From IMG/VR virus record IMGVR_UViG_3300037119_009977, positions 1-20,720 of that record: a DNA stretch of 20,720 nt. One strand, given 5' to 3'. The first letter of the stretch is position 1. Every line of letters starts with the position of its first letter. The position numbers and the translations under genes were made by a program. Source of the DNA: a virus. The notes beneath the pieces were generated by a model. It was given only the letters and a program-made list of their open reading frames with translations, did no database searches and had not been told where the DNA came from. Below are positions 834 to 20,720 of the stretch, in pieces.

Positions 834-875
834 TGTCGGCTCCATGTAGCGGCTATGTGCGAGTGTCACAGCACA

Positions 876-904
876 AGTGTACCACAAAACCGCACAAAAA
901 ACAA
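876..904 (-). promoter_or_regulatory. Promoter PA of the SWIM operon
   Basis: On the minus strand: TTGTTT (904-899), a 17-base spacer, then TACACT (881-876), with TG one base before the -10 (extended -10). Transcription should start near 869 and run into the gene beginning at 833. The element is a near duplicate of promoter PB at 1828-1856, which lies inside the T-free island. Confidence 0.7.
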
Positions 905-908
905 GGTG

Positions 909-927
909 CGACAGCAAACCGACAGCA
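909..927 (-). promoter_or_regulatory. Two phased TGCTGTCG repeats upstream of PA
   Basis: Two direct copies of TGCTGTCG (minus strand; 909-916 and 920-927) are spaced 11 bp apart, one helical turn. The first lies 4 bases upstream of the -35 hexamer. The same motif in the same position upstream of PB suggests a common binding site for a regulator acting on one face of the helix. Confidence 0.5.
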
Positions 928-959
928 AAGGATCGCAGCGTCAGCGGGCCAGGACGGGG

Positions 960-1029: not shown

Positions 1030-1090
1030 AAACTTCCTCTGCTCTCCTCCTCGGGATTACGGCGACAGGCGGCCAGTGGAGATCATCACG

Positions 1091-1156
1091 CGAGCGGAGC
1101 GAGCCGCCGGCAGCGCCGGCGAAACCGAGCGGAGCGAGGCGGCGGCAGCGCCGGCG
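1091..1156. repeat. 31-bp direct repeat, two copies
   Basis: Bases 1091-1121 and 1126-1156 are near identical (differences only in the middle; both begin CGAGCGGAGCGAG and end CAGCGCCGGCG), with a 35-bp period. They sit at the left edge of the T-free island, just beyond the predicted RNA terminator. Role unknown. Confidence 0.8.
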
Positions 1157-1200
1157 GACGGCAGCGGCGAGCGCGGGCCACGACACCCAGGCGGGAGGGC

Positions 1201-1233
1201 AAAAAAAAGCGCCGCGGGGAACACCCACGGCGC
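1201..1233 (-). terminator. Intrinsic terminator of the adenine-free RNA
   Basis: On the minus strand a 10-bp stem (1233-1224 with 1218-1209, one G-U pair) closes a 5-base loop and is followed directly by eight T (1208-1201). This is a textbook Rho-independent terminator, and its RNA contains no adenine. It is oriented to end transcripts from promoter PB. Confidence 0.78.
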
Positions 1234-1821
1234 GGACCCAAACCAAACCGACGCGCTAGCAAGCGCAGGCGCCGAGGACACCGGCAGCGGCAGCGGCAGC
1301 AGCCACCCCACCAGAGACCGGCACCAGGGCGGGAACGAAACCCGGGACCACAGCGACCGGCACAGAGACGACCCAGACCCCACCGCGCCAGGGCGACCGG
1401 CGGACCACACAAACACCGGCGCCCGAGCGAGGACCCCAACGCACGGCAAACACGCGGGCGGCAGACAACGACCGGAACGCGCAGACGAGGACCGCACCCG
1501 AGAACGACCGCGAGGACGGGCGCAGGACCACACCGGCAAGACCGCCAGCACGAAAGGCAGACCACAGCACGCGCACAGGGGACGGGGCGACAGGACCGAC
1601 CGGCACGACAGGACGGCGACCCCAAAACGGAACCGACGCGCCCAAGCGGACCCAAAGCGGGACCGAAACGGCAGCGGCAGGACGGGACGAAACACCCAAA
1701 GAGGACGCACCCCACGAAACAACGCGCACGACAGGACGAAACGACCGAAACGAGCGGAAAGGCAGACGAGACACAGGACCCCCAAAGAGAAGAACAACAG
1801 CGCCAGAGAACCGAAACCCAC
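1201..1821 (-). ncRNA. Candidate ~620-nt adenine-free noncoding RNA
   Basis: The unit is bounded by promoter PB (-10 at 1833-1828, start near 1821) and the intrinsic terminator at 1233-1201. The predicted transcript of about 620 nt contains one adenine, at 1257 (within GCTAGC), and is otherwise only G, C and U. No credible protein is encoded: there is no ATG, all frames are open for compositional reasons, and any translation would use only F, L, S, C, W, P, R, V, A and G. I know of no RNA family with this composition. Large phage RNAs such as GOLLD and ROOL have ordinary base content. The promoter shares sequence and phased upstream repeats with that of the SWIM operon, so the RNA is probably made at the same time. 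Ends and existence are inferred; no function is known. Confidence 0.55.
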
Positions 1822-1827
1822 ACAACA

Positions 1828-1856
1828 AGTATAGCACAAGACCGCACAAAAAGCAA
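1828..1856 (-). promoter_or_regulatory. Promoter PB of the adenine-free RNA
   Basis: On the minus strand: TTGCTT (1856-1851), 17-base spacer, TATACT (1833-1828). The only two adenines on the minus strand between 1258 and 2123 are the two A of this -10 box, which argues that it is functional and kept by selection. It is a diverged copy of PA, with the same length, spacing and a shared spacer core TTTTTGTGCGGT. Confidence 0.75.
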
Positions 1857-1860
1857 GGGG

Positions 1861-1900
1861 GAACAGCAAACCGACAGCAAACCGACAGGAAACGACAGCA
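1861..1900 (-). promoter_or_regulatory. Four phased TGCTGTCG-type repeats upstream of PB
   Basis: Copies (minus strand) lie at 1861-1868 (degenerate), 1872-1879, 1883-1890 (TCCTGTCG) and 1893-1900, spaced 11, 11 and 10 bp. The array begins 4 bases upstream of the -35, exactly as at PA. Helical phasing suggests cooperative binding of a regulator. Further TCCTGTCG copies occur inside the RNA region (1588-1595, 1606-1613, 1729-1736). Confidence 0.5.
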
Positions 1901-1930
1901 CAAGCGGCGACGGGCGGCGGACACCCAGGA

Positions 1931-1963
1931 CGCAAGCAAGACACAAAGCCGCAAGCAAGACAC
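1931..1963. repeat. 14-bp direct repeat in the T-free island
   Basis: CGCAAGCAAGACAC occurs at 1931-1944 and 1950-1963, a 19-bp period, upstream of PB. The two copies are exact. Role unknown. Confidence 0.8.
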
Positions 1964-2123
1964 CACAGCGGAGACACCCGGCAGAGCGGGCACGGGCGCG
2001 GGGCAGGCACGCCCAAGAAGCCGCGCAGAAGCAGAAAAGCCAAGCGCGGAGCCCGACAGCAACGACGACGAGCGCACCCGGGGAAGCAGGACGCAACGAC
2101 GCGAAAAACCCACCCCCCCCCGC

Positions 2124-2398: not shown

Positions 2399-2812
2399 TT
2401 AGCGACCATCGGCCCTCTGGGCACGAGGTACACGACGCATATACCCCTTCAACCACTCCTCAAACTGTCCCCGCGGCAACCACCACCGGCTCCCGCGCTT
2501 CTCCGCTCCCTCGATCTTCCCGCGTACAATTGCCATTCGCAGCGTCGATTCCTGGACCGTGACGCCATCCTCTGCGGCCTCTGCGCGCGCCTGATCGGCG
2601 GTGATCATTTCGTCGGGTGAGACGGCTTGTGCCGGCGGGGGTGGCGGCTGGACCACGCCATCTACTTGCAATGATTCGAGATAGGTATTGAGTCTGGCTC
2701 GCAGTAGCAATAGGTCGCGCTCATCGGCCAATAGCAGTTCATTATGACTGTCGGCGGTGCTGCGGATGATCAGCTGTCGTGTGCTGTCAACGGCGAGGAT
2801 GTGATAACTCAT
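2399..2812 (-). CDS. Excisionase-like helix-turn-helix protein
   Basis: A 137-aa protein starting at the ATG at 2812, with AGGAG 8 bases upstream; the longer in-frame start at 2851 has no such site. The N-terminal part (1-60) carries an amphipathic segment rich in leucine (ERDLLLLRARLNTYLESL), followed by a proline run. Residues about 68-125 form the DNA-binding domain: ITADQARAEAAEDGV, then STLRMAIVRGKIEGAEK, then RWWLPRGQFEEWL. This is the pattern of the Xis/MerR-type winged helix (helix_turn_helix_17), in which a short helix-turn-helix is followed by a wing and a terminal W/L helix. It may direct excision or act as a small repressor. The gene has its own consensus promoter at 2861-2889 and diverges from the lipoprotein gene. 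Which of the two HTH genes here serves as Xis cannot be decided. Confidence 0.78.
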   Translation of the reverse strand: MSYHILAVDSTRQLIIRSTADSHNELLLADERDLLLLRARLNTYLESLQVDGVVQPPPPPAQAVSPDEMITADQARAEAAEDGVTVQESTLRMAIVRGKIEGAEKRGSRWWLPRGQFEEWLKGYMRRVPRAQRADGR

Positions 2813-2860
2813 GTGTGGGCTCCTGCTGCGAATTTGCGTGTGAGTGAACAAGTTGTGCGG

Positions 2861-3817: not shown

Positions 3818-3875
3818 GGCGCTTGATGGGGCTCGAACCCACAACATCTAGATCCACAATTTAATGCTCTGCCCC
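3818..3875 (-). other. attP candidate: 3' part of a tRNA-His gene
   Basis: On the minus strand this reads as a tRNA from the D-arm to the 3' end. In order it shows a D-arm-like GGCAGAGC, an anticodon loop TTGTGGA with anticodon GTG (His), T-stem GTGGG, T-loop TTCGAGC, T-stem CCCAT, acceptor strand CAAGCGC, and discriminator C73, which is characteristic of tRNA-His. The 5' half is missing (replaced by an A-run), so it is not a functional tRNA gene. Phages that integrate into tRNA genes carry such a 3' fragment to rebuild the gene. The integrase lies next to it. Confidence 0.82.
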
Positions 3876-20271: not shown

Positions 20272-20720
20272 TTAGGCGATTGATCGAATGTTACCTGTAA
20301 AGGCGGAGCGCAAAGCGGCATCATCACGGCGCGCTGCCAGATCATTTAATGCTTCCTGCTCGTCGTAAGAGAGCGGGCGATCAAAAGAAGGGGCGCTGTA
20401 AAGCCAAGCGGCAAGGGCGGCGGCCTCGGTGTCGTTGCGCGGCAGCCAAGAATGATCGCGGGCGGCGCGGATGAAACAAATAGTAATCGGGAAGCGGTGA
20501 CCGGGGGGGTAGGTGATCACGCGGCATCCTTTTTCATCTCGTAGAATAATCAAGCTGCCTGGGTTCAGTTCGGCGTCGCGGCGTTCGTGGCGCCGATCAT
20601 AGTCACCCGTGAGGCGATAGTTGAGGGTTTGGCTCAGGATGCGACGGTATGAATGATACGCGAGGATGTGTTTGCAGAAGTACCCGGGCGGATCCTCGTG
20701 CAAGGGCGTTCGGTTGTGCT
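20272..20720 (-). CDS. SWIM zinc-finger protein, C-terminal part (gene crosses the circular join)
   Basis: This is the continuation of the gene beginning at 359; the window break falls within it, and the codon phase agrees exactly across the join (offset 20593). This part contains the last zinc ligands (C93-K-H95, encoded just inside the repeat) and residues up to 226. Beyond the finger there are basic and beta-like stretches (LSQTLNYRLTGDYDRRHERRD, SLIILRDEKGCRVITY, FPITICFIRAARDHSW), then an alanine-rich helical tail ending GNIRSIA. I do not recognise the second half. The 109-aa gene lies 48 bp downstream in the same operon. Confidence 0.88.
   Translation of the reverse strand, partial: HNRTPLHEDPPGYFCKHILAYHSYRRILSQTLNYRLTGDYDRRHERRDAELNPGSLIILRDEKGCRVITYPPGHRFPITICFIRAARDHSWLPRNDTEAAALAAWLYSAPSFDRPLSYDEQEALNDLAARRDDAALRSAFTGNIRSIA
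20595..20720. repeat. Terminal direct repeat, right copy (circular join)
   Basis: Identical to 2-127 of the window; see that entry. Offset 20593 gives the likely genome length. Features within it are the same as at the start of the window and should be counted once. Confidence 0.93.

Follow-up and report, generated by a model that had tools for sequence, protein, structure and literature searches.

A nearly adenine-free and very probably protein-coding island in a phage genome and its relatives

Phage morons and other accessory genes of the lysogeny region carry their own promoter and terminator and show variable content at a fixed site, as does the island described here. However, their base composition is ordinary or merely shifted, whereas the island does without one base; we know of no moron that lacks one. 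Diversity-generating retroelements single out adenine, as in the island, but they vary this base instead of excluding it, and they need a reverse transcriptase together with template and variable repeats; the former is absent from the five phage records, and no such repeat pair was found at the island.

Messages kept intact by the lack of a nuclease site have been engineered for single protein production, with ACA-less genes combined with MazF (PMC9102682, PMC3542334). This resembles the idea of a nuclease-proof message, although only one triplet is missing from these engineered genes and nearly all adenine from the island. Cas13a cleaves tRNAs whose anticodon contains U, and the toxin RNases that follow it act on A-rich sites of mRNA (PMC11042736). 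Exactly an A-free message, requiring no anticodon U and offering no A-rich sites, would be spared, but this is a defence system and is compared with the island phages by analogy only. Phages with 2-aminoadenine (Z) also do without adenine in DNA (PMC8599892); there the base is chemically replaced genome-wide, while in the island a coding letter is absent from one strand over 1 kb. As far as searched, genes that avoid one nucleotide at each dispensable position while their proteins remain conserved are undescribed, and the phage records, Chloroflexota genomes and open-access full-text literature searched held no counterpart of the A-free genes.

The island and its genome

The window, that is, the whole stretch of DNA analysed, is an IMG/VR record of 20,720 bases (G000). 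Its ends share a direct terminal repeat of 126 nt (2-127 = 20595-20720), which makes a complete circular genome of about 20.6 kb probable; the junction of the repeats lies within a SWIM-like zinc-finger gene. The genome has recognisable genes for integrase, terminase, portal, capsid and a peptidase. Relatives of the terminase were found in Chloroflexota genomes, Caldilineaceae and Litorilinea among them, pointing to that group as the likely host range. The phage is of temperate type, and its host is probably in Caldilineales or a near relative (Chloroflexota). Next to the integrase, a stretch of 47 nt (3824-3870) is 89% identical to part of the tRNA-His gene of Bacillus phage G and is possibly the attachment site; ARAGORN found no whole tRNA there.

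The island and the features around it, all on the minus strand, are the following:

867..929, minus: paralogous promoter region of the ordinary neighbour gene 372-845, 63 nt, 86% identical to the island promoter region
1087..2123, minus: adenine-free island (T-free on the plus strand), 1037 nt, with minus-strand A only at 1257, 1830 and 1832
1087..1208, minus: A-free DNA past the terminator, carrying GC-rich 35-nt repeats
1201..1233, minus: predicted intrinsic terminator, stem 1233-1209, 10 pairs, U8
1256..1258, minus: UAG stop, whose middle base, A1257, is the sole adenine of the transcript
1256..1774, minus: ORF of 172 codons with GUG start and UAG stop, all sense codons without A
1779..1783, minus: putative A-free ribosome-binding site GGGGG, within TTGGGGGT, 4 nt ahead of the GUG start
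1828..1856, minus: sigma-70-type promoter TTGCTT-17-TATACT, read from the sequence, -35 hexamer without A
1837..2123, minus: A-free DNA upstream, without codon periodicity (p=0.95), a stretch for which the ORF does not account
2399..2851, minus: conserved upstream neighbour gene with homologues in L011, L012, L016 and L020, matching phage DNA-binding/excisionase profiles weakly

T makes up 22-24% of the window outside the island, against three T in the 1037 nt within it, which excludes chance. The three longest T-free runs of the island measure 572, 291 and 170 nt, and no run in the remainder of the window exceeds 39 nt. The preliminary description had placed an A-free unit at 1201-1821, bounded by the promoter (1856-1828) and the terminator (1233-1209, U8), with a single A at 1257. 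Both signals are present, and a base count confirms the lone A of the transcript; the lack of A holds as well, but extends further at both ends. The other two A of the island, 1830 and 1832, belong to the -10 box. Outside the transcription unit, T is absent from the plus strand at all 287 nt upstream and all 122 nt past the terminator.

On its right side the island is bordered by a C run (2111-2123). On the other side, between the promoter of gene 372-845 and the island, lies a perfect 17-nt inverted repeat (966-982 / 1013-1029) with a 30-nt loop and A and T runs at its sides. Derivation of the island from another window segment, by deletion of T or its conversion to one other base, was rejected, the 63-nt promoter paralogue being the only segment found.

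Relatives and coding capacity

Scanning the IMG/VR terminase relatives for base-poor stretches revealed strong T-poor islands in L016, L020, L011 and L012, with T-free runs of 527, 292, 114 and 91 nt, respectively; that of L011 is cut by the contig end. All five contigs that extend over the region around the DNA-binding (2399-2851) and SWIM-like genes, window phage included, contain the island, and each time A is missing from the same strand (minus, sense). L016 and L020 are about 95% identical in the flanks and 66% in the island; counting them as sister phages leaves about four independent lineages among the five. Their comparison, and that of the five phages, indicates that the cargo varies whereas its site and the phage genes on either side are conserved. 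In the window, L016 and L020, the ORF or ORFs have their own promoter and terminator, and TTGGGGGT also precedes the first ORF in L016 and L020. Searches through the proteins or neighbour genes yielded no island-bearing phage past the five.

Conservation in the relatives follows the reading frame. ORF1 of L016 and of L020 share 71% identity over 91 aa (E 2.7e-18, composition-based statistics), with 23/18/52 changes at the three codon positions (p=2e-5). The ORF2 of L016 and the L011 ORF are 44% identical (49/51/84, p=0.002), and a cysteine-rich ORF common to L020 and L012 is 53% identical (30/34/54), the third position thus being the most changed in all three pairs. L020 has three consecutive ORFs, and the UGA of ORF1 overlaps the GUG of ORF2. 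These data also bear on an artefact of sequencing or assembly in which T calls were lost. Beyond the oddity itself nothing speaks for such an artefact, and it is extremely improbable: the feature recurs, with conserved proteins, frames, promoters and terminators, in contigs of four other metagenome datasets, and the 91 aligned codons of the ORF1 pair contain no frameshift.

In the window, the frame of the UAG at 1256-1258, read backwards, is stop-free up to 2212. The GUG at 1774 is the best start, although we infer rather than observe it, as UUG at 1825 or 1828 would also be possible. The ORF uses the residues A, C, F, G, L, P, R, S, V and W (start Met aside), its stop codon lies 23 nt from the terminator stem, and its codon-phase (period-3) bias is modest but significant (p=0.01). 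A close homologue was not found for it. Only in the coding frame is it similar to L020 ORF2 (LWSAFRAGGL / IWSAFRRGGL), with a score matched by 2/1000 shuffles, compared to 666 and 532 in the other frames; this is suggestive of homology rather than proof. Protein coding is therefore demonstrated by codon-level conservation in the relatives and strongly indicated for the window ORF.

The preliminary description had instead proposed a new class of noncoding RNA, free of start and stop codons, and had named translation with codon-level conservation as the observation that would speak against it. Such conservation is what the relatives display. GUG and UUG starts need no A, and the lone A1257 sits in an in-frame UAG. 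A noncoding A-free RNA, serving as decoy, scaffold or RNase-proof molecule, would agree with the promoter, the terminator and the lack of A, which are all real. It is nevertheless very unlikely given the codon-level conservation, the place of the only A in an in-frame stop, and folding no better than expected from composition (z -0.69 relative to composition-matched shuffles, of which 4/20 fold as well). Rfam contained no family match for the unit, the search giving nothing but two microRNA hits at chance level (E 0.8 and 0.91). The island unit thus very probably encodes a protein and not a noncoding RNA. Of the roles proposed in the preliminary description, resistance to A-dependent nucleases may still apply, but to an mRNA. 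The earlier impression that no RNA family has this property stands within the searches made as regards novelty, but the property belongs to a protein-coding unit and not to an RNA family.

L016 ORF2 and the L011 ORF contain GAD and SGSW motifs that recall SLOG/DprA-like nucleotide-binding proteins, a resemblance we treat as a lead only. Neither PF10686 nor PF02481 matched them, and the Pfam scan gave no such domain; the assignment was not confirmed. Helices and strands alternate in the predicted structure of a SLOG candidate, considered with regard to a Rossmann-like fold, but its pLDDT of 33 is too low for use; of the two AlphaFold models made for island proteins, the other reached 40 and is also too poor. 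Pfam, PHROG and NCBIfam profiles gave no convincing match for the island proteins, and for those of them that were searched, GenBank phages, plasmids and genomes of the order yielded no homologue.

Reach of the adenine exclusion

On the sense strand, A persists only at positions that cannot do without it, namely the -10 box, stop codons and a small number of key residues. The L016 message, counted from the -10 box as far as the terminator, measures ~1,065 nt and holds three A, located in the UAG of ORF1, in the UAG of ORF2 (within the terminator loop) and in the Asp codon GAC of the GAD motif. In L020, A remains where ORFs start and stop and around a cysteine/histidine cluster. None of the 502 fourfold sites of the window ORF, L016 ORF1 and ORF2 and L020 ORF1 uses A. 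Comparison of L016 and L020 ORF1 gives 35 synonymous changes at third positions, which are distributed over G/T (12), C/G (12) and C/T (11) and never involve A. Since C, G and T interchange at sites where A is absent, the exclusion is still in force and no frozen accident.

The proteins bear the mark of this exclusion. Residues requiring A make up 0.6-13% of the island proteins, compared to 36-43% of other window proteins, and the island proteins are built from about ten amino acids. Lys, Glu, Asn, Gln, His, Tyr, Ile and Thr are missing, and Asp and Met nearly so; avoiding one nucleotide at the dispensable positions thus costs about half of the amino-acid alphabet. A plain codon preference of the phage against A was rejected on these grounds, the other window genes having A at 7-26% of fourfold sites besides their normal share of A-requiring residues. 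Whichever cause applies, the island proteins offer a natural test of folding and function with a reduced alphabet.

Possible causes

Our preferred reading, which we consider somewhat probable, is a moron-like, protein-coding accessory operon of a temperate-type phage that has been purged of A, perhaps because its A-free message would be proof against nucleases and tRNases. A-directed mRNA interferases, together with nucleases cutting U-containing anticodons, would shut down other translation. An A-free message would then stay usable, offering the interferases no A to cut, and tRNAs whose anticodons lack U would suffice to read all its sense codons. The tRNA idea presupposes that such tRNAs exist; one Caldilineaceae genome that carries a related terminase has them for all the codon families concerned (ten amino acids). 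That this protection is the reason for the exclusion we put forward tentatively, and with far less confidence than the coding itself. That the islands form a natural class of adenine-free phage accessory operons, alone translatable under A-directed mRNases and U-anticodon tRNases and encoding ten-amino-acid proteins, seems unlikely on balance. Were the messages proof against defence RNases and tRNases, they would represent a new kind of counter-defence written in base composition.

The absence of T from the plus strand outside the transcript favours a cause at the level of the DNA strand over selection on the mRNA. The T depletion surrounds the operon on both sides in L016 and lies upstream of it in L020. 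A DNA-strand-level cause is also favoured by a small plus-strand ORF of L016 (1401-1583), in which T is avoided at third positions (p=0.005). This ORF, of 61 aa (MNKKLLIMLNQ...), is divergent from the A-free operon and has a ribosome-binding site and an ATGACA-17-TATAAT promoter of its own. If transcription reads through, the T-free flanks could still be consistent with message-level selection.

One cause of this kind would be targeted mutagenesis, in which an enzyme keeps destroying minus-strand A in this segment, for example a diversity-generating-type reverse transcriptase acting in trans, while selection restores the few essential A. The T loss on both sides of the transcript would fit, as would the inclusion of the opposite-strand L016 ORF and of the A-free -35 box, and the surviving A stand where selection would be expected to protect them. 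We nonetheless hold this account to be doubtful. Reverse transcriptase (PF00078) is absent from all five phage records, of which one is circular and the four relatives may be fragments, and at the island no long direct repeat was found besides the 63-nt promoter pair, observations on which a diversity-generating retroelement was rejected. The substitutions between the two promoter paralogues are of the ordinary sort and for the most part do not affect T; the synonymous changes involve C, G and T evenly, whereas adenine deamination would leave G in excess; and continuous action on about 1 kb only would be required. If a strand-specific adenine mutator does act, it would be a new mutational machine.

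Alternatively, selection could bear on the DNA itself, or on a single-strand intermediate of replication, packaging or recombination, that must have a plus strand without T. This would account for the flanks and for both gene orientations, but we know of no process demanding a T-free plus strand, the position and length of the island vary, and T depletion in L011 and L012 goes no further than the last stop codon, leaving normal 3' flanks. We regard it as quite improbable. Message-level selection, the reason given in the preferred reading, is placed slightly ahead of a DNA-strand-level cause, without conviction.

An origin of the island in T-free host DNA was also considered and rejected. Among the T-free runs of at least 124 nt whose sequences were retrieved, in 46 genomes of the order, most consisted of repeats or of coding DNA of low complexity, and the few non-repetitive ones measured 124-131 nt. 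The TATAAT-GGGGGT-A-free architecture is absent from 400 Chloroflexota genomes, while the same pattern recovers L016 and L020. About 195 nt of one Chloroflexota genome contig (L251, 14886-15086) are almost purely G and C and may be an assembly fault. In L016, T-poor tandem repeats of about 50 nt each (1-145) lie directly past the terminator of the A-free operon. Beside the island of L016 and L020, a conserved noncoding stretch contains a near-perfect 34-nt inverted repeat with arms about 76 nt apart (L016 1774-1917, L020 3606-3749).
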